This document shows, piece after piece, positions 11,022 to 62,958 of a stretch of DNA of 64,000 nt. Made by a program: the position numbers and the translations under genes. Where the stretch lies: positions 1 through 64,000 of the IMG/VR virus record IMGVR_UViG_3300027969_000042, one strand, 5' to 3'. This stretch comes from a virus. Within the stretch, counting starts at the first letter, position 1, and each line of letters begins with the position of its first letter. The notes beneath the pieces are model-generated. The model was not told the DNA's origin and did no database searches. It saw nothing but the letters and a program-made list of their open reading frames with translations.

Positions 11022-14000
11022 ATGCCATTTATAGATACAAATTTAATTCAGTCCTGGACCACATCGACCATATCATCACAAATTGGTATTAATAGAAATT
11101 CCAATAATGTTGGTAATATAGTTTATATTGATAGTAGAGTTATAGATTCTGATTATCCAAATGGAGGATATACTTATACTCAGGGTAAAAACTACCAAAT
11201 AGTTACTGGTGTATCAAGTTCAAGTTCAACAATTGGTGCACAATTATCTATTAGATTTAATGCACCCTTTAAAGACTCTATTGCATCAGTTACAACAGAC
11301 GTGTCTAGTATTACACAACCAGGTGTTGATTTTTATATTTATGCTACTCCTTTATCTACATTGAAATCAAAATCAATAGTTAGATATGGTGCGAATGATT
11401 CTTTTACACAATCAATAATTACAAAATCTACATTAAATGAAATTGACTTTTTAATAAATGGTTATAGAGAGTTTAGTTACTTAGATAGATCAATTGATGA
11501 TAGTACTCAACCAAGTGGATGGTATTTTGGCAATAGCTTAAATCCGTTTTCATATAATTGGATTTATAATTCTACTAGTATAGCACCAACATACTCTATA
11601 TTTGGTTCTGGTTTAGATATAATAGTTACTAAAAATTTTATTGCAAAACCGATAGAGTATGATACTTTTAGTTTAGAAATGAAATATACATCTGTTACAT
11701 TTAGTAACACAACTGACGGAATGAGTGTTTATATAGTTAGAAATGATTTACTAAAAACACCAATTTCTTGGGGTCCATCTATTGTAGATTTTACATCTTC
11801 AACAATATTTGCAACTACTAGTTTAATAGGTACAAATGCAAATGGCTCTAAAAACTATTTAGTTATCTCGGCATCACAAAGTGGTAATTATGCAGCAAGT
11901 TTGGATAATATTAATATCGTTGGAGCTTATCATCCTAAAAATAACTTATTACAACTAACTAGTGATGGTAGTGGAAGTTATTCTGGTACTACACCAATAA
12001 TAGTTGATATTCTTGAAGCAACTTATTCACATATACTACTTCAAAACGGAACTCCTTATACACTAACATCTAGAATTGGTAATGGTTTATTTAGATCCGG
12101 TATTTGGGAGAATGGTGTTTGGAATAGTGGTTGGAGAGATGATGAAGAGGCAAGAGACTTTGATGATGTTGCATTTTCAGTTTTAACGGAATCTGATATT
12201 TCATGGAAAATTGAAATTAGAGGTTCTACATACTCAATTGCAAACTTTGCAACTGGGTCTGCAGTATCAATCGGTAATATTATTGCAATAGATATAAACG
12301 ATAATAGAAAACTTTTAAAAGATTATTATAAGATAGAAAACTTAGGTATCGCATATAATTATTCTGTAACTGGGGAAACACAATCTGCTTATGGATGGAT
12401 GAGAGTAAATCTAGATACAACTTTTCCTTATAGAAGGATTGAGAAGGATTCTCAAAATCATAAGATAAAGGTAACTAAAAATATTTGGCTATCTGGTGGT
12501 TTCTTTAATGGTTATTTCTCTGGTGTTTGGAATAATGGATTATTCAAAGGATTCCCTCGTATCACAGAGATGTTTAATACACACTGGATTGACGGATTCT
12601 TTAATGGTGGTCATTTCAATTCTAATTATTCAGATACATATGATTTTACTGGATTTGATGCACGTCAAGCTTGTACTAATGGTTATATAAATTTAACATT
12701 TGGTGCTGTGCCAGGACATCCTGATGGACAATATACATCACTTTTACCAGGTGATTATATTTTAATTACTTTTGGAAGTAATATAGTTGATAGTGGTGGT
12801 TATGCCGGTGTTGCATTAGTTATTGCAGTAGATCATCAAATAAGTCCAACAACCGGTGCAATGATTGATGTTGTTACAATTGATAAAGTATTTAATGGAA
12901 GACCAATTACTGTTCCTCCAAATACTACAACACTGGGTTCTGTAATAAGATATACTGCAACTGGTTTAATACAAAATTTTAAATTCTATGATAATAATAG
13001 ATCTAAGATAAAGTCTATTGATAATCCATTATCTACTGCAGTATTTAGCTTTAATTCTTGGATTGATGTAAACTATGATTCTACTAGATCAGTTACTTTA
13101 GGTAGAGAATTTAGAATGTATGAACCACTTACTAAAAAATCTATAAATAGAAATAACCTATATGGATATCCAACCTATGATGTTTTGGCATCTTTATCAC
13201 GTTTTAGAGATAGTAATACTTTAGATTATAAACTATATAAATTAGGTACTAAATATAAGGTATTTACTGATTTTATTGGATCGGGTTCCGAATTTAATGA
13301 ACCATTTAATGAGCTAGATTTTAGTAACTTTATAAATGTGGGTTGGACTTCATCATATAATAATATAAATAACTTTTCTTTAAAAAGAACCGAAAATATA
13401 ATATCATTAAACAATCAATTATCTACCGACTTTTTAAACTCCGGGGTAACTGGTGATGAGTTATATGTAAATGCAAGTAATACAGGATTGATATTAAATA
13501 ATAATAATATAAATATTTCAAAATCTAGATATTCTATTGTAGAATTTGATGTTATAACCTATAGTGTTGCAAGTACAAACTTTACTTATAAAAACCCTAA
13601 TATTTATTTAGTAAAGAGTATTGATAGTACTGGACCATTTATAGAGACAATTTCTGTTGGACCTTCGGCATCATTAAATAATACTATACTAAGTAGTTAT
13701 TCACTTGGTATGAGTCCACCAGGTCCTCCAGGTATACAAGTAGATGATATTTTAGTTACGATTAATTTATATGGTGATGTTACTAGTACAATTATTAATT
13801 TACAAGCACCTAATGGTTCAATTATAAATGTTAAAAGAAATGGAAGTGGATTAGGTACAGAATTATCAAATACTAAGTTTAGTTTAAGAGATATATATAC
13901 TAAAATTTCATTAGGTACAACACCTTATATTGATACATATTTGATGGATAAGCAATTGAATCAAGGTGATGAATCATTTCAGCCACCGGTTGGACCAGTG

Positions 14001-15665
14001 GTTCCTTCTTATGTATCAGATGTTACTACATTATCACAACTAACAAGTGCAATCTATGGTGTTTGGAGATTATACATTAAATATAATCCACTTGGAGTTG
14101 TTCCTTGTGATTTAATAAATTGGTCAATAAGTATTCAGTATAAAGATTTGGTTAGTATAGATACAGAACCAATTTCAACATTACCAATATTAAATCTTTC
14201 TAATCTTAATTATGATATTACTACACAATTATCTGGTTATGATAATGTACAGATTTATAAAAAGATGAATTATCTTCCTATAAGAGAAAATGTTAATCAT
14301 TTAAAAGTAAAAAATACATTTAGATTAGATTCTATTGAAGAAGCTACACCTGCTAAGTGGGGTGGTTATGGAAAAAATCAAACAACAAAAAAGTATGAAT
14401 ATTTCTATAATAAAACTGATATGATGTTAAGTATCAATGGTAATGGTGCAACTGGTGCTAGTACGTCAATGTTAGTATTAGATAATCTTAATATGTATGA
14501 AGTAGATATGATTCCATTTTTTAAATATTTTGATGAAGATAATATCTACAAAGGAATACAAATTCCATATATTGGAGAAGCTCCAGATATTGATTACTTA
14601 AACTCTGACTTTGTATTTGTTGATAATATTACAGTTGGTGTTGATGCAATTGATGCAAACGGAAATAACTCTCTTGCAACAGATTGTCAAACAGCCGTAG
14701 TAATTAGTAATATACCAACAACAATACCTTCATTTGCAGTAGTTACAAATACAAGTCCAACTGCAACAGATTCACGATTATTTACGATTACTAAGAATGA
14801 CAATGATACTACTCCTTTACAATTAAATGCTTATATTGTGGCATCTAATATTAGTAATATACCAGCATCAGTTAGTTGGACAACAGTAACATCAACTGGT
14901 CCTACAATAACTATTATTTCAGGTAATACTTTAACTCCTACTGTTCAGGGATTTGGATCAGGTAACTATCGTTTAAGAGTTACTGCAGTATCTGCTACTT
15001 CAAGTAATTTATTATCACCAATAACAGATTATGCGTACATTAATATCAATGTTACTATACCAGTTGCAACGGTTCCTACTATACTAGTTGGTAATCCATC
15101 TAAGCTTAAAGGTGTTACTTATAGTGTAAATGATATTATTCCACAATTAGGTAAAAATATTTTATCTGGTGACTTACTAACTGGATATAGTAGCACTGCT
15201 GGTTCTGCAAATACTATAAAGATTCTATCAGTACCAACAGTTGGTAAACTAATTTATAACAATGTTACTGACTTAGTAGTAAATAGTGTGGTTACTGTCT
15301 CTGATATAACTAATTATAAAATGTATTACTTCCCTTGGGGTAATCCACAAGACAATGACTATGGAGAAGGTTCTGGATCATTGGCAGATATTACTACAGA
15401 GGGTTCTTCTTATACCACAACATTTACGTATGTAATTATTGATAATGTGGGTAATCAATCTCAAGTTATTACTATGTCACTAGTATGTACTAAAGGTGCC
15501 GTTTCTGTAACAACAATTGGAAATACTACTGGACCTTCACCTACACCTGGAAATGGATCTACTGGACCTACACCTGGTCAAGATTTTGAACAAGAGGACC
15601 CACAATATGAACCAGGTGAAGAACAAGGATCACAAGAAGGACAGGAACAAGATGGTTGGTGTTAA
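11022..15665 (+). CDS. Giant virion protein with P-domain-like module and acidic tail (1547 aa)
   Basis: Short W-x-x-G blocks (IWENGVWNSGW; FFNGYFSGVWNNG) lie near residues 355-370 and 490-535, linking it to the first giant protein. Residues about 890-1045 resemble a proprotein-convertase P-domain: paired strands with LQAPNGSIINVKRNGSG, a loop, then a Trp-containing GVWRLYIKYNPLG strand and a WSISIQYKD end. A closely similar module occurs in the 1947-aa protein at 42-48 kb. The last 400 residues are cadherin/Ig-like, and the C-terminus is a Pro/Gly/Glu tail (EQEDPQYEPGEEQGSQEGQ). Probable tail or baseplate fibre; no enzymatic motif seen. Confidence 0.7.
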   Translation: MPFIDTNLIQSWTTSTISSQIGINRNSNNVGNIVYIDSRVIDSDYPNGGYTYTQGKNYQIVTGVSSSSSTIGAQLSIRFNAPFKDSIASVTTDVSSITQPGVDFYIYATPLSTLKSKSIVRYGANDSFTQSIITKSTLNEIDFLINGYREFSYLDRSIDDSTQPSGWYFGNSLNPFSYNWIYNSTSIAPTYSIFGSGLDIIVTKNFIAKPIEYDTFSLEMKYTSVTFSNTTDGMSVYIVRNDLLKTPISWGPSIVDFTSSTIFATTSLIGTNANGSKNYLVISASQSGNYAASLDNINIVGAYHPKNNLLQLTSDGSGSYSGTTPIIVDILEATYSHILLQNGTPYTLTSRIGNGLFRSGIWENGVWNSGWRDDEEARDFDDVAFSVLTESDISWKIEIRGSTYSIANFATGSAVSIGNIIAIDINDNRKLLKDYYKIENLGIAYNYSVTGETQSAYGWMRVNLDTTFPYRRIEKDSQNHKIKVTKNIWLSGGFFNGYFSGVWNNGLFKGFPRITEMFNTHWIDGFFNGGHFNSNYSDTYDFTGFDARQACTNGYINLTFGAVPGHPDGQYTSLLPGDYILITFGSNIVDSGGYAGVALVIAVDHQISPTTGAMIDVVTIDKVFNGRPITVPPNTTTLGSVIRYTATGLIQNFKFYDNNRSKIKSIDNPLSTAVFSFNSWIDVNYDSTRSVTLGREFRMYEPLTKKSINRNNLYGYPTYDVLASLSRFRDSNTLDYKLYKLGTKYKVFTDFIGSGSEFNEPFNELDFSNFINVGWTSSYNNINNFSLKRTENIISLNNQLSTDFLNSGVTGDELYVNASNTGLILNNNNINISKSRYSIVEFDVITYSVASTNFTYKNPNIYLVKSIDSTGPFIETISVGPSASLNNTILSSYSLGMSPPGPPGIQVDDILVTINLYGDVTSTIINLQAPNGSIINVKRNGSGLGTELSNTKFSLRDIYTKISLGTTPYIDTYLMDKQLNQGDESFQPPVGPVVPSYVSDVTTLSQLTSAIYGVWRLYIKYNPLGVVPCDLINWSISIQYKDLVSIDTEPISTLPILNLSNLNYDITTQLSGYDNVQIYKKMNYLPIRENVNHLKVKNTFRLDSIEEATPAKWGGYGKNQTTKKYEYFYNKTDMMLSINGNGATGASTSMLVLDNLNMYEVDMIPFFKYFDEDNIYKGIQIPYIGEAPDIDYLNSDFVFVDNITVGVDAIDANGNNSLATDCQTAVVISNIPTTIPSFAVVTNTSPTATDSRLFTITKNDNDTTPLQLNAYIVASNISNIPASVSWTTVTSTGPTITIISGNTLTPTVQGFGSGNYRLRVTAVSATSSNLLSPITDYAYININVTIPVATVPTILVGNPSKLKGVTYSVNDIIPQLGKNILSGDLLTGYSSTAGSANTIKILSVPTVGKLIYNNVTDLVVNSVVTVSDITNYKMYYFPWGNPQDNDYGEGSGSLADITTEGSSYTTTFTYVIIDNVGNQSQVITMSLVCTKGAVSVTTIGNTTGPSPTPGNGSTGPTPGQDFEQEDPQYEPGEEQGSQEGQEQDGWC

Positions 15666-15695
15666 AAAATCTAGGTAATCACAAATTACAATAAT

Positions 15696-16217
15696 ATGAA
15701 TTTAAAATATGGTAAAATAGAAATAAATAATGTGGTTTGGTCTTCACCAAATATAGTATCATTTTTTAGTTGGAGAGATGACTTCTTTAAAATACCTAAT
15801 TCCGAAAAGTTTGATGTTTATTTAACAGGAAGTTTTTTGGATAAACTACTTGATAATGTTGGTAATCCTAATGATATTGATATTATTTTAGCGGGAAATC
15901 ATAATATACAGGATATTGAAAATGTGATTTATCAAGGTACAAAAATAGGTATAGAAAAGTATGGTATATTCTTTGATATTCATTGGGATAATAAAGTAAT
16001 TTATAACCCATATACTGATGAAGAAACTAAAAATGATAATATATATATGCTCGGAGATAAATGGATAGTCGATGGTGAAATTAAGAAGCAGTATAAACCG
16101 GCAGTAAAGATAGCAGATAGTTTATATAAAATTACATGGGGTCTCTCTAATAAAAAACATATAGATAAAATGAAAAGTGGTTATATTTATAAAGCACCAC
16201 TTTTAATTAACTACTAA
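15696..16217 (+). CDS. Predicted nucleotidyltransferase (copy 1 of a tandem pair)
   Basis: 173 aa. The pol-beta-type signature is visible: GSFLDKLL (Gly-Ser) followed by DIDIILAG, giving the Asp-x-Asp metal ligands, and a later FFDIHWDN that could supply the third carboxylate. The substrate is unknown; such minimal nucleotidyltransferases modify RNA, proteins or antibiotics and also occur in toxin-antitoxin pairs. It is a close duplicate of the next gene, with two stretches of about 70 identical bases at an exact 540-base offset. Confidence 0.65.
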   Translation: MNLKYGKIEINNVVWSSPNIVSFFSWRDDFFKIPNSEKFDVYLTGSFLDKLLDNVGNPNDIDIILAGNHNIQDIENVIYQGTKIGIEKYGIFFDIHWDNKVIYNPYTDEETKNDNIYMLGDKWIVDGEIKKQYKPAVKIADSLYKITWGLSNKKHIDKMKSGYIYKAPLLINY

Positions 16218-21703: not shown

Positions 21704-21991
21704 TTAGTTTAGAGTTTTATACTCTTGTTTAATTTCAGTTTCTAGTTCAGACTCTTGTTGTTCGTCTAATTGTTTATTAAACTCTTTTTTATACCAAGAA
21801 ATTAGTTGATGAATGATAATATCTTCTGCTTCACCATTACTGACTGCATTATAATCACCTTCTTCAACCCATTCTTTTACTTCATCAGCAAGCATTTCAG
21901 AAACGGTTTCTTCTGTGAATTGTTCTTTAATCTTTACAACTGCATGATGTTTATCAAAAGTGTTCTCATTATATTTTCTTAAATATCTCAT
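21704..21991 (-). CDS. CTS-like N-terminus, putative internal head protein (95 aa)
   Basis: Starts MRYLRKYNEN, similar to the capsid-targeting peptide of T4 internal proteins. The rest is acidic and helical (VKEWVEEGDYNAVSNGEAED; EQQESELETEIKQEY). Four-base overlap with the upstream gene. No enzymatic motif seen. Packaged head protein is inference from the N-terminus. Confidence 0.55.
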   Translation of the reverse strand: MRYLRKYNENTFDKHHAVVKIKEQFTEETVSEMLADEVKEWVEEGDYNAVSNGEAEDIIIHQLISWYKKEFNKQLDEQQESELETEIKQEYKTLN

Positions 21992-51970: not shown

Positions 51971-52435
51971 ATGAGATACCTAAAGAGATATAACGAAGCA
52001 AAAGATACTAGAAGTTTCTATTTTAGTGCCAAACCCGAAGAAGGTGAATTAGATGAACTTAGAGATTTCTGTGAAACACATTTAGCTTATCTTGTAGATA
52101 AAGACTTTGTAGTTGATGTCTCAAATGATTTTACTCATAAAAACTTTCATATTTCTATTCTTAAAGAAGGAAGTAAATATAAAGGATTTACTTGGGAAGA
52201 AATTAAAGATCATTTTATTCCTTTTTTAACACACTTATCAAGAAAATATGATATATGTTATGAAAGTGTAAAATTTAACCCGTTAGTGGGTGGACTTCCT
52301 AAAACATATACATCATATGATGTTGATAGAATTATATCAGAAGATGATCTTAAATTGTTTATTTACTTTCGTGAATTAGAAACTATTTCAGAAGTTTCAA
52401 TTGATATTGAATATAAAATGAATTTACAAGACTAA
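51971..52435 (+). CDS. CTS-like N-terminus, paralogue of the 22-kb protein (154 aa)
   Basis: Starts MRYLKRYNEAKDT. The body shares LAYL-x-D, KGFTWEEIKDHFIPFLTHLS and KYD with the 138-aa protein at 21988-22404. Its preceding AT-rich element (TTTATATATATG) starts 16 bases before the ATG. No known domain; packaged head protein is inference. Confidence 0.55.
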   Translation: MRYLKRYNEAKDTRSFYFSAKPEEGELDELRDFCETHLAYLVDKDFVVDVSNDFTHKNFHISILKEGSKYKGFTWEEIKDHFIPFLTHLSRKYDICYESVKFNPLVGGLPKTYTSYDVDRIISEDDLKLFIYFRELETISEVSIDIEYKMNLQD

Positions 52436-54966: not shown

Positions 54967-55407
54967 CTATTGATTTACTAAATTTTGAAGCTTGTTCTGC
55001 TGTGTATATAAACGTCCTGAGAAATTGACTGGAGATCCGTGTGTTAAATGTCCACCGTGAGATAAATCAAATCCTAAAATTTTATCACCAGGTTTTAAAC
55101 AAGCGTGAAAAACCGCAGTATTTGCTTGAGAACCAGAGTGTGGTTGTACATTGACATATTCTACACCAAATAATTCCTTGGCTCTTTCAATGGCGATTTT
55201 TTCTACAACATCGACAACTTCACAACCACCATAGTATCTTTTATCTGGATAGCCTTCTGCGTATTTATTTGTTAAACAAGATCCGGCAGCTTTCATTACT
55301 TGATCACTTACAAAGTTTTCTGATGCAATAAGTTCTATTCCGTGAATTTGTCTACTCTCTTCTTCTAATATAAGATCAAAGATTTTACTATCATTTTGTA
55401 CTTTCAT
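54967..55407 (-). CDS. glyA: Truncated serine hydroxymethyltransferase, N-terminal third only (146 aa)
   Basis: Unmistakable SHMT start: IASENF (residues 27-32), [14 protein letters not shown] (48-61), QPHSGSQAN (88-96), [12 protein letters not shown] (120-131). The match stops after RLY (134); the remaining residues [12 protein letters not shown] are unrelated. Full SHMT has about 420 residues and the PLP Lys near 230, absent here, so no normal catalysis is possible. The missing part is not found downstream in any frame. Either a decayed metabolic gene or a short protein that binds host SHMT subunits. Start chosen at the family-consistent ATG. Confidence 0.8.
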
Positions 55408-58643: not shown

Positions 58644-58889
58644 ATGATTATAAAAAGTTTTAATAAGTTCAACGAAAGTCTTAGTGATCCAATTTTTACA
58701 GATGAGATTCCTCATTATGGTGAATACTATACTATTCCTGAATTTAAAGAAGCTATAGAAGATGGTGACATTACAAAAGATGATGGAACTGGTTATTATT
58801 CAAATGGAGAACATATGAGTAGAAAGAATCCTGTTTTTGATTCAGAAGAACCAGATGGTTCAAGATATGTAATTTGGTTTAATAAATAA
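58644..58889 (+). CDS. CTS-like N-terminus, putative internal head protein (81 aa)
   Basis: Starts MIIKSFNKFNESLSDP. The rest contains EIPHYGEYYTIPEFKEAIED and GTGYYSNGEHMSRKNPVF, a small acidic domain. The segment around GTGYYSNGEH suggests a compact beta fold. No family recognised. Confidence 0.55.
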   Translation: MIIKSFNKFNESLSDPIFTDEIPHYGEYYTIPEFKEAIEDGDITKDDGTGYYSNGEHMSRKNPVFDSEEPDGSRYVIWFNK

Positions 58890-58904: not shown

Positions 58905-59135
58905 ATGATAAAAAAATTCAACGAATTTCTAAAAGAGTCTTACAGACCTAATGAAGGACAAGATGGTTCAACTAGTGTTCATTTAAAAGATGAAGAATTG
59001 GACTTATTCCAAACAGAAGGTTCTTTAAGAACTTTAATTACTGATGAGAAAATCTCTTTGGTTGGAAACGATTTATGGTATCACGAAGATGATAAACAAA
59101 CTATTGATACATTAAGTAACTACTTTAGTATATAA
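58905..59135 (+). CDS. CTS-like N-terminus, putative internal head protein (76 aa)
   Basis: Starts MIKKFNEFLKESYRPN, matching the T4 IPIII leader pattern well (aromatic, F, L-x-E). The rest is acidic (KDEELDLFQTEGSLRTLITD). Fifteen bases after the previous CTS-like gene, so a pair. Confidence 0.55.
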   Translation: MIKKFNEFLKESYRPNEGQDGSTSVHLKDEELDLFQTEGSLRTLITDEKISLVGNDLWYHEDDKQTIDTLSNYFSI

Positions 59136-59149
59136 AAAAATAAACAAAT

Positions 59150-60871
59150 ATGAAAATTAAAAAAACAAATTTTCTATTATTAAGATCAGCATCAATTTTA
59201 TTGATGCTGTTCGTGTATAATGGATATTCGCAATGTACGAATACTACTACATGGGATGGAACTGGTTGGTCTAATGGATTTCCAGATTCCGTAACAACTG
59301 CTGTTATAGATGGAGCTTATGATACAATCAACGATGGTTCCATAGATTGTTGTTCTCTTTCTGTTACTAACCAGGGAAATTTAACTATAAGCTCCGGTGA
59401 CTACTGTAATATCTATTCAAATATTACTGTTGATCCAGCTGGTATATTATTAGTAAAGTCAGGTGGTTCTCTTATTCCTAATAATAATAGTGCGGTCTCT
59501 ACTGGGATTGTTAAGGTTGAGAGAAAAACACCGCTCACTAAGAGATACGATTATACATATTGGAGTAGTCCAGTTTCTACAACAATAGGAACTGCTTTGT
59601 TACCCGCTAAATGGGAACCTAATTATACATTTACATTCTATACGCCTAATTTCTATGATGTCGAAACACGTTACCAAACCACATTTATTTCAAATTTCCC
59701 GGATGGTCAAGATGACAATGGTGATACTTGGACAAGAACTAATATAGCAAATAGCATGATTCCGGGTAAAGGATATGCTTCAATGATTAAATCAATAACT
59801 GCAACCGGAGTATATCCTAGAATAGAAACCGTTACTTTTATAGGTTCTCTAAATACTGGTGTAATTACTATACCTTTGGATTTAAGTCAAAATACTGCAA
59901 GCGATGTTGATGATTTTAATTTAGTAGGAAATCCATATTCCGCAAGTATAAACTCAAACGACTTTATCGATGAAAATATCTTAAATATCTCAGGAACTTT
60001 ATATTTTTGGACACATGCAAATACATTGACTACATCATATTCAGGTTTAGAACAATTCAACTTCTCCGCAAATGATTATGCTAAGTACACTAAATTAGGC
60101 GGGATAAATGCAGTCTTCGGCGGTAAAAAACCTTCCAATGTTATAGGAAGCGGTCAAGGGTTTTTAGTAGAAGCAGAAAGTGCAAATAACTTAGTTTTTA
60201 CACCTAATTTAATGTCAAAGGCTTATGTTAATACAACAGCAGTTTCTTTTTTTAGAGGTAGTAATAATAACAAAAGAAAACTTTGGTTAAATATGACAGA
60301 TGGTGAATTGTTTTCTCAACAACTAATTGGTTATAACTCAAGTTCTGACTTAGAATATAATAAAGGTTGGGATAGTGGATGGGAAAGTAGTATCGCAGTT
60401 GCTAGATTACCTCTTAAATTTTATTCAATAGAAGAAAATTATCACTATGATATCCAAGCAAGAGGTAGATTCGACGAAGATGACGAAGTTAGATTAGGTT
60501 ATTTTAGTGCAGCAAACGCTCAATTTACTATTAGTATTGATCAGAAAGAAGGAAAAATTAAAGATGTTTATCTATATGATGAAGTTTTTGATATATGGCA
60601 CGATCTTTCAGTACCATATACTTTTGATACTACTACTGGAGAATTTAATACACGATTCCGTATAAGATATAAACTACCAGAAGATGAAGACGATCATGAT
60701 GATAAAATTAAGAGTAATCTAGTTAAGAAGATAGATGTTTACGATTTATTTAATAGAAGGATTGATTCAATTGAAGGTGATAATTTAGATAATCTACCAT
60801 CTGGTCAAATCTTAATACTTAAAATATATCAAGGTGATGAAGTAATAACTAAAAAATACTTTAAAAAATAA
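59150..60871 (+). CDS. Secreted T9SS-type host-like protein (573 aa)
   Basis: Signal peptide 1-27 (hydrophobic core ASILLMLFVYNG, cleavage near YSQ). The middle carries motifs of Bacteroidetes secreted proteins: YTYWSSPVS, NLVGNPYSASINSNDFI, SGQGFLVEAES, FFRGSNNNKRKLWLNMTDGE, YDIQARGRFDEDDEVRLGYF. The last ~50 residues (KKIDVYDLFNRRIDSIE ... SGQILILKIYQGDE, KKYFKK) match the C-terminal sorting domain of type IX secretion cargo. Such proteins are normally bacterial surface proteins. In a phage this is a probable recent host acquisition (moron) that alters the infected cell surface. The preceding gene is 14 bases away. Confidence 0.8.
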   Translation: MKIKKTNFLLLRSASILLMLFVYNGYSQCTNTTTWDGTGWSNGFPDSVTTAVIDGAYDTINDGSIDCCSLSVTNQGNLTISSGDYCNIYSNITVDPAGILLVKSGGSLIPNNNSAVSTGIVKVERKTPLTKRYDYTYWSSPVSTTIGTALLPAKWEPNYTFTFYTPNFYDVETRYQTTFISNFPDGQDDNGDTWTRTNIANSMIPGKGYASMIKSITATGVYPRIETVTFIGSLNTGVITIPLDLSQNTASDVDDFNLVGNPYSASINSNDFIDENILNISGTLYFWTHANTLTTSYSGLEQFNFSANDYAKYTKLGGINAVFGGKKPSNVIGSGQGFLVEAESANNLVFTPNLMSKAYVNTTAVSFFRGSNNNKRKLWLNMTDGELFSQQLIGYNSSSDLEYNKGWDSGWESSIAVARLPLKFYSIEENYHYDIQARGRFDEDDEVRLGYFSAANAQFTISIDQKEGKIKDVYLYDEVFDIWHDLSVPYTFDTTTGEFNTRFRIRYKLPEDEDDHDDKIKSNLVKKIDVYDLFNRRIDSIEGDNLDNLPSGQILILKIYQGDEVITKKYFKK

Positions 60872-60874
60872 AAT

Positions 60875-60903
60875 AAAAACCCAACAATTAGTTGGGTTTT
60901 TTT
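60875..60903. terminator. Bidirectional rho-independent terminator
   Basis: AACCCAAC/GTTGGGTT stem with loop AATTA and T-runs on both sides, separating the T9SS-type gene from a converging gene. Confidence 0.85.
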
Positions 60904-61613
60904 ATATACATTCTTAAATTCTCCCATAAAAACTGAAAGATATTATCAATTTGGTCATATTTAATTCTAATCAAATTTATATAATTCTCTTCACAATAAT
61001 CATTCTTAATTTTGTCATTTAACTTCATTCTTTGATAAGTTTTAGAGCCACCTAACGTATCAACAGGCTCAAAGTGATATAATCCATCAAACTCAATACA
61101 TGTTCTAATAGACTCAATATAAAAGTCAAATGATATATTATTAATAAATAGTTTATGTTTATAATCTATATTAAATTTTTTAAGAAAATCCATAATTTCT
61201 TTTTCTCCTTCTAAATCATATTTATTTAAAGTATCATTTAAAATAGATTCTTCGTTCTTTCTAAACTCTGGTGCCAATCCTTCTAAATGAGATTTAGCTC
61301 TTTGTTCATAAACAATACCATTATAAATAACTTTAATATTATTTAGTGCTCCTTCATACTTAGTTAAAGAATAATCATATTTATCTTTCCATACTTCCTT
61401 GGCCTCTAATATAAATTGTTCGGTAGTTTTTTTATAAAGTACTTTCTCTGGACATCTACCAGATAAATGCTTTATTACTTTTTGATAATAAACATTATCA
61501 TCAAATTTAACTTTTATAGTATCTGATACCTTTACTTTATCAGATAAATCTATGTATTCATACTTATATCCGTGTATATTATGTGCCTTTTCTAAAAATT
61601 TTAATCTTGTCAT
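60888..61613 (-). CDS. Homing-endonuclease-like protein with Vsr/EDxHD-type nuclease domain (241 aa)
   Basis: The N-terminal half has repeats of the DNA-binding type FLEKAHNIHGYKYEYIDL ... HLSGRCPE and FILEAKEVW...YDYSLTKYEG...HLEGLAPE. The C-terminal ~90 residues (LFINNISFDFYIESIRTCIE, then FDGLYHFEP ... KLNDKIKNDYCEENYINLIR) form a Vsr-like nuclease core with catalytic acidic residues in DFYIES and FDG. This arrangement is common in free-standing phage homing endonucleases that sit beside recombination or replication genes, here next to UvsX. Preceded by TTTGATATATAG at 15 bases. Confidence 0.7.
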   Translation of the reverse strand: MTRLKFLEKAHNIHGYKYEYIDLSDKVKVSDTIKVKFDDNVYYQKVIKHLSGRCPEKVLYKKTTEQFILEAKEVWKDKYDYSLTKYEGALNNIKVIYNGIVYEQRAKSHLEGLAPEFRKNEESILNDTLNKYDLEGEKEIMDFLKKFNIDYKHKLFINNISFDFYIESIRTCIEFDGLYHFEPVDTLGGSKTYQRMKLNDKIKNDYCEENYINLIRIKYDQIDNIFQFLWENLRMYIKKPN

Positions 61614-61725: not shown

Positions 61726-62958
61726 ATGGCAAAAGTTGCAAAAGAAGTTAAAAAATTTGAATTTAGTAAAGTAGGAACAATTCTAGATAATATTGGAAAA
61801 AGTATTCCAATTGTTATTGAAAAAGAAATAAAAGAAAAAGTATTCATTTCAACGGGTGTATATTTAGTAGATGCTGCAATGTCAGGTAGATTACTTAATG
61901 GTGGTATAGCGACTAATAGAATTAGTGTTTTTGCTGGTGAATCAGGTGCAGGAAAGTCGTTTATGTGTTTCTCGTGTGCAAAACACGCACAAAAAGCAGG
62001 ATATAGTGTTATTTATATTGATACTGAAAATGCTATTGATTTGGAAGATTTACCAAAATATGGTGTAGATAATTCAATAGATAAATTTAGATTAGTTCGT
62101 TCGAATAAAGTTGAAGATGTGAATATGTTATTAACACAATTGATTGATGATTTAAAAGAACAAAAAATGGCTGGTTATGAATTACCTAAATTACTAATAG
62201 TTATTGATTCATTGGGTCAAATGGCTTCAAATAAAGAAAAAAATGACTTATTAAAAGGAGATATTAAACAAGATATGACTAAAGCTAAAGCATTAGGATC
62301 TTTATTTAGAAGTATCAATACAGATCTTGGATATTTAGATATTCCACTTTTAGTTGCAAATCACACATATTTAACTATGGATCTTTTTCCTAAATCTGTA
62401 ATGAAAGGTGGTAATGGTCTATTATATTCTGCGTCAGTTATCGGTATGATGTCAAAATCACAACTTAAAACTGGTGAAGAAGATGATATGGATTTAGGTT
62501 CAAGTGGTATTTCAGTTTTATTTAAAACACAGAAGTCTAGATTGGCAAAACCTAAGAAAATCAGATTTGATATTTCATTTGCACATGGTATGAATCCTTT
62601 CACTGGATTAGATGCTTTCTGTAGACCAGAGTACTTTGATAAAATTGGTATTGCGAAAGGTAAAATGGAAGTTGATAAATCAACTGGTGAAATGAAGTTT
62701 ATTCCGGGTGGAATTAGATGGTATATTGATCACTTAAATAAATCAGTACATACTAAACAATTATTCACTCAAGAGGTATTCACTCAAGAGGTATTAGAAA
62801 AAATGGAACCAATTGTAAATGATTACTTTAGATTTAAGTCTTTAGATGAAATAGAAGACGTTGAGAAAGAATTCAATAGTATCATCGGTGATGAAGATGA
62901 TACAACAGATGATAACGGATTTACAGACTCAGCAGATGCTGATGATATTTTCGGATAA
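61726..62958 (+). CDS. uvsX: UvsX/RecA-family strand-exchange recombinase
   Basis: 410 aa, similar to T4 UvsX (about 390). Walker A GESGAGKS at residues 71-78, followed by CAKHAQKAGYSVIYIDTENA, the RecA-core with the Asp/Glu at the end of the next strand, and LLIVIDSLGQM as Walker B (about 160-170). The C-terminus is acidic (GDEDDTTDDNGFTDSADADD), as often in these proteins. Acts with the gp46 homologue in recombination-dependent replication and repair. Start ATG follows a clear AT-rich promoter-like region. Confidence 0.9.
   Translation: MAKVAKEVKKFEFSKVGTILDNIGKSIPIVIEKEIKEKVFISTGVYLVDAAMSGRLLNGGIATNRISVFAGESGAGKSFMCFSCAKHAQKAGYSVIYIDTENAIDLEDLPKYGVDNSIDKFRLVRSNKVEDVNMLLTQLIDDLKEQKMAGYELPKLLIVIDSLGQMASNKEKNDLLKGDIKQDMTKAKALGSLFRSINTDLGYLDIPLLVANHTYLTMDLFPKSVMKGGNGLLYSASVIGMMSKSQLKTGEEDDMDLGSSGISVLFKTQKSRLAKPKKIRFDISFAHGMNPFTGLDAFCRPEYFDKIGIAKGKMEVDKSTGEMKFIPGGIRWYIDHLNKSVHTKQLFTQEVFTQEVLEKMEPIVNDYFRFKSLDEIEDVEKEFNSIIGDEDDTTDDNGFTDSADADDIFG

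Follow-up and report, generated by a model that had tools for sequence, protein, structure and literature searches.

P0001, the 573-aa product of the gene at 59150-60871 (+), is by its sequence a homologue of the C-terminal half of RemZ and RemA, gliding adhesins of F. johnsoniae. Its tail is, according to alignment and structural model, a shortened and diverged type A-like sorting domain (CTD) in which the equivalent of a PorV-contacting lysine is kept. The window analysed here is the first 64 kb (64,000 nucleotides) of a 177.5-kb virus record. Remodelling of the infected cell surface or superinfection exclusion is the role that we favor by analogy.

Homology of P0001 to the RemZ/RemA C-Terminal Region

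The gene is an intact frame of 573 codons, and the ORF check returned exactly the coordinates of the first-pass annotation, which had read it as a phage-encoded cargo protein of the type IX secretion system (T9SS) with a signal peptide. The N-terminus, MKIKKTNFLLLRSASILLMLFVYNGYSQ (residues 1-28, ending in NGYSQ; 59150..59233, +), is on inspection arranged like a signal peptidase I signal, as had been claimed; its AlphaFold2 model confidence was low. A phmmer search of P0001 against the PDB sequences gave exactly two matches, RemZ (Fjoh_0803; E 1.9e-50) and RemA (E 1.1e-41), both T9SS substrates (PDB 8gl8 / 8gl6). Residues 33-525 of P0001 aligned with residues 574-1043 of RemZ, about 490 homologous residues, at identities of 36% to RemZ and 33% to RemA, and the family profile carried the match on to the last residues of both. 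With the family alignment, the homology to the RemZ/RemA C-terminal region was placed at residues 33-508 (59246..60673, +). P0001 thus shows significant full-length homology to this C-terminal region family. It is not a full RemA gliding adhesin, since the long N-terminal extension is absent and the C-terminal region follows directly after the putative signal peptide; at 573 aa, compared with 1114 in RemZ and 1436 in RemA, it is phage-encoded, lacks their N-terminal parts and has a shortened CTD.

The motifs YWSSPV, NLVGNPY and RKLWLNM, which the first-pass annotation had taken as typical of Bacteroidetes surface proteins, proved to be columns of this family, in which W138, P141, G260, N261 and W379 were invariant among 55 aligned relatives. 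The Pfam search of P0001 returned just DUF6461 (E 0.034), and NCBIfam and PHROGs returned nothing. The AlphaFold2 model of P0001 had a mean pLDDT of 84.7. The structure search found a solved relative for the CTD and none for the body, and no binding domain was recognised in P0001 by the curated family and structure searches. Against the viral structure library, the model matched best a 'putative hemin binding protein' of a phage (E 1.4e-27). The GC content of the gene (0.318) and its GC3 (0.185) were inside the range of the window's genes, and by this comparison composition gave no clear mark of recent arrival.

A Shortened Type A-like Sorting Domain

The putative CTD comprises residues 525-573 (60722..60868, +). 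The tail LVKKIDVYDLFNRRIDSIEGDNLDNLPSGQILILKIYQGDEVITKKYFKK aligned with the family CTD, and an acidic linker, EDEDDHDDKIKSN, stands in place of the first CTD strands. A CTD profile derived from 73 bacterial relatives matched the tail with an E value of 0.0012; among 1000 shuffles, the best value was 0.13. The curated type A models TIGR04183 and PF18962 matched neither the whole of P0001 nor the isolated tail, and no CTD match on P0001 came from Pfam, NCBIfam or PHROGs. Four confident strands were predicted by AlphaFold2, compared with seven in type A CTDs. In Foldseek, the C-terminus of the model superposed on the RemZ CTD (prob 1.00, 2.6 Å over 55 columns) and on the RemA CTD (prob 0.99), which is supportive and not independent, because bacterial CTDs were in the alignment behind the model. 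The sorting-domain-like end of the first-pass annotation therefore stands on the family profile and the superposition, as a degenerate domain that the curated CTD models miss.

Lys569 (codon 60854..60856, +) was invariant in the 55-sequence alignment and aligned with Lys1110 in the tail of RemZ. In RemZ, K1110 is almost invariant, functionally important and in contact with PorV (PMC10994853). The lysine near the C-terminus that contacts PorV in type A substrates is thus kept in P0001, and the predicted fold of its tail resembles that of the RemZ and RemA CTDs. Since the CTD is shortened and falls under the curated cut-offs, export of P0001 by the T9SS could fail.

Genomic Locus and Synteny With Mahaphages

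Upstream of the P0001 gene and in the same direction lies a small ORF with a capsid-targeting-like N-terminus, MIIKSFNKFNES (58644..58889, +). It is followed by a 76-aa ORF (58905..59135, +), 14 bp ahead of the P0001 gene, with orthologues of 145-149 aa in LR756502 and LR745206. Downstream, a pattern scan gave a candidate terminator-like hairpin (60875..60901, -) between the P0001 gene and an HNH/homing-endonuclease-like gene (60888..61613, -; PHROG 559, E 4e-32), whose place is conserved in Mahaphage relatives. Then comes a UvsX/RecA-like recombinase gene (61726..62958, +), recognised by family searches and 79% identical to that of LR756502, which served as the synteny anchor. The endonuclease and UvsX genes had syntenic counterparts in both LR756502 (642 kb) and LR745206 (634 kb), and in LR756502 more orthologues extended upstream. 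Genomes of at least 634 kb are placed in the Mahaphage clade, with Bacteroidetes hosts predicted, in the huge-phage paper (PMC7162821).

The cargo gene was missing at the equivalent locus of both genomes. In LR745206 the endonuclease gene follows the upstream small ORF after 22 bp with no cargo gene between them, and in LR756502 a different ORF of 89 aa takes this place. The simplest reading is that the P0001 gene is an insertion or replacement at an accessory site. This absence from the syntenic locus of the nearest huge phages, together with a Bacteroidota (Flavobacteriaceae-like) origin, agrees with the earlier claim of acquired DNA, and the synteny of the record, with the RemZ/RemA homology, agrees with that of a phage-encoded protein of T9SS cargo type. 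In the window the P0001 gene adjoins the uvsX region and lies outside the tail cluster, and no homologue of the fibre proteins described below was found in the 177.5-kb record.

Two further features of the region were recorded. An N-terminal fragment of serine hydroxymethyltransferase (54967-55407, -; 146 aa, matching 3-132 of 399 profile positions) lies in an otherwise unrelated neighbourhood. An MKHLKKYNES-like N-terminal motif is common to many small phage proteins; it occurred in the window at 21704-21991, 51971-52435, 58644-58889 and 58905-59135, and a rough pattern count there gave 6, compared with 2.7 expected. Seven ORFs in a row start in this way in L124:6541-9861. The motif resembles T4 capsid-targeting sequences, and by analogy the small proteins that carry it may be packaged and injected.

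Related Cargo Genes in Other Phages and in Bacteria

Alignment scans of IMG/VR showed that eight other viral contigs (L085, L086, L087 and L100-L104) encode RemZ-like T9SS proteins; a scan with the single P0001 sequence gave no match, and the relatives surfaced with alignments as the query. At the tblastn level, there was no relative in 50,697 GenBank phage records. Identity was 61% for L085, 46% for L100, 35-36% for L101-L104 and 30-31% for L086 and L087. The L085 protein (L085:8594-11653) was 58% identical to P0001 overall and reached its 61% over residues 33-507. The first-pass annotation had recognised the T9SS cargo type; the RemA/RemZ-family body, the shortening of the CTD and this recurrence in other phages had been overlooked.

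The L085 contig (3300046000_009647) carries a myophage structural cluster with PhoH, sheath, tube and fibres. Judged by sequence appearance rather than by a marker test, it would be a T4-like myophage, and L101 and L103 have crAss-like gene content. Unlike P0001, the L085 protein has an added DUF4874/DUF4832 N-terminus, a canonical type A CTD and a position in a tail gene cluster. With L100:8621-11641, where the DUF4874/DUF4832-type part is assigned by likeness, it represents phage cargo proteins of about 1000 aa, and L101-L104 encode short forms of 555-561 aa with the architecture of P0001. The CTDs of the phage copies other than P0001 are longer and ordinary. Directly ahead of the cargo gene in L085, L101 and L103 stands a fibre-like gene. 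The encoded fibre-like proteins (L085:5762-7984, L101:7260-9806 and L103:7390-9063) share a related C-terminal region across very different phages (BLASTP 2e-30 for L085 and L101). In two contigs, the cargo gene has a conserved lipoprotein-like ORF (…LVSCS…) downstream of it (L103:11845-12696 and L104:5043-5909).

In a quick tree, P0001, L085, L100, L101, L103 and L104 formed one clade (SH-aLRT 98) with L085 as the sister of P0001. Quick trees also hinted at two separate phage acquisitions, which we do not claim, because the AU test left a single clade of all phage copies unrejected (p 0.57); one or two acquisitions are both compatible with the data. The dN/dS ratio was 0.09-0.27 for close phage pairs and 0.15-0.28 for pairs with P0001 or L100, where dS is near saturation (0.15 for P0001 and L085). 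The phage copies are under purifying selection.

The scan of bacterial genomes yielded 463 relatives. The 77 loci that were kept came nearly all from Flavobacteriaceae, at identities of 29-42%. Most of them encode larger proteins, of about 700 to more than 1500 aa, in which the region forms the C-terminal portion and which terminate in a T9SS-type CTD. The short architecture was seen in two chromosomal copies, L059 and L061; we rejected the idea that they are hidden prophage genes, given their chromosomal-looking neighbours (superoxide-dismutase-like and Mfd-like by sequence appearance). The contigs of L015 and L059 (JASGCW010000086 and JASGCW010000002) are labelled Limnohabitans MAG20, yet carry Flavobacterium-type T9SS genes, which are probably contamination of that bin.

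T9SS Cargo in Huge Phages

In each of the four huge phages examined (634, 636, 642 and 735 kb), the largest complete phage genomes of the 2020 survey, one or more type A CTDs scored above the curated cut-off, which was passed by one of the 14 genomes in the control set. Type B CTDs (TIGR04131) over the cut-off numbered three each in the 642 and 634 kb phages, with none in the controls, and five of them were on proteins of 732-1670 aa with signal-peptide-like starts. The 642-kb phage LR756502 encodes one such protein of 1670 aa (L123:3379-8391), with a signal-peptide-like start, 13 SprB repeats (PF13573, 6e-95), a PKD domain and a CHU_C type B sorting domain. As SprB repeats also occur outside SprB, we call it SprB-like and not SprB. 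Like P0001, it is T9SS cargo of the gliding-adhesin type in a closely related phage; it differs in its SprB repeats and type B CTD, and its sequence is unrelated. Further T9SS cargo-like proteins of type A or type B were seen in the four huge phages at L088, L089, L090, L091, L092, L124:3689-6385, L125:3812-7429 and L126:3116-5614 and 13769-15967; several of them contain PKD or Ig-like domains. The 177.5-kb record, which is a fragment, gave no further match to the type A or type B CTD models.

Phage-encoded T9SS cargo as such is already known. The cryophage cargo (PMC7468147, 2020) likewise comprises phage-encoded proteins with type A sorting domains; it consists of an endoglucanase, a GH39 and a PA14 protein from another phage, which are not gliding-adhesin homologues, and superinfection exclusion was already proposed for it. 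T9SS sorting domains have also been described on Bacteroidetes-phage proteins linked to BACON domains (PMC6949934, 2019), and the accessible part of that paper does not report the RemA/RemZ region. Predicted surface proteins of huge phages may affect susceptibility to other phages, according to PMC7162821, whose main text does not use the word "secretion". The literature searched, mostly outside subscription journals, did not report cargo of the RemA/RemZ type, the distribution of such cargo over myophage- and crAss-like phages, or the combination of type A and type B cargo in Mahaphages. The gliding-adhesin kind of phage cargo and its presence in Mahaphages look unreported.

Discussion

The explanation that we rank highest overall, by analogy and at about even chances, is that P0001 is a captured adhesin half that is exported by the T9SS and competes with host adhesins, leading to superinfection exclusion. 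The phage would have acquired the gene, as an accessory one, from a Flavobacteriaceae-like host, with the conserved C-terminal half of a RemA/RemZ-type adhesin fused straight to a putative signal peptide. During infection, P0001 would cross the inner membrane by Sec, and the SprA/PorV translocon of the host, whose T9SS we infer from its phylum, would carry it out to be released or displayed on the infected cell. As a stripped-down gliding adhesin, it may occupy the secretion path of the host adhesins and their places on the surface, and may change the adhesion, gliding or phage adsorption of the cell. Export via Sec and then the T9SS is the best-supported step; we regard it as very likely for the phage family and, because of the shortened CTD, as likely for the P0001 copy. 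From such export, surface remodelling would follow. Gliding machinery and adhesins of Flavobacterium have been proposed as phage receptors (PMC7345892), so masking or competition by P0001 would give superinfection exclusion, in our view the single most likely pay-off by analogy.

The secreted protein might instead serve adhesion or dispersal, with infected cells, or virions released next to them, adhering to gliding cells or polysaccharide. A title cited in PMC10994853 reports RemA to be a surface lectin, phages can be carried as cargo by gliding bacteria (PMC9127263), and the extra N-terminal module of L085 and L100, of the DUF4874/DUF4832 type, would add a further surface function in the fused relatives. 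P0001, however, lacks the lectin-like N-terminal region of RemA, as well as any recognised binding domain, and we consider this reading possible if rather doubtful. That P0001 is a tail protein of the virion which reuses an adhesin domain, and is not secreted by the cell, is suggested by the cargo genes within tail or fibre clusters in L085, L101 and L103; it is improbable in view of the signal-peptide-like N-terminus, the CTD kept in nearly all phage copies and the window gene's own place beside uvsX, away from the tail cluster.

A CTD cut down to roughly four strands that retains the lysine for PorV contact would also suit a protein that enters the SprA/PorV pore, leaves it poorly and blocks T9SS export of the host during infection, and removal of the motor can indeed leave RemZ trapped in the translocon (PMC10994853). 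Given the longer, ordinary CTDs of the other phage copies, such jamming would be special to P0001, and we hold it to be quite improbable. The same degenerate CTD, and accessory presence beside a homing-endonuclease gene, could mark a recent host capture without function in the phage whose tail is decaying. Against decay speak the intact frame, the overall identity to L085, the low dN/dS (even with dS near saturation in the L085 pair) and the recurrence of the gene in several phage types, which make it very unlikely.

We return to the competing, T9SS-exported adhesin half as the preferred reading, with phages probably using the host export machine to alter the surface of infected cells. A broader and tentative extension is that Bacteroidota phages, above all Mahaphages, might possess a dedicated set of T9SS-secreted proteins that mimic gliding adhesins (RemA/RemZ-like and SprB-repeat proteins), replace or mask the moving surface adhesins of the host, and control gliding and re-infection of the infected cell. 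The CTDs of RemZ and RemA have already been solved within the translocon, which makes export testable by point mutants. A few phage T9SS cargo proteins were known before, and the cargo described here is homologous to gliding adhesins that are themselves suspected phage receptors. This leads to an idea, open to direct test, about the use of some of the additional genes in huge phages and about the way in which superinfection may be handled by phages of gliding bacteria.
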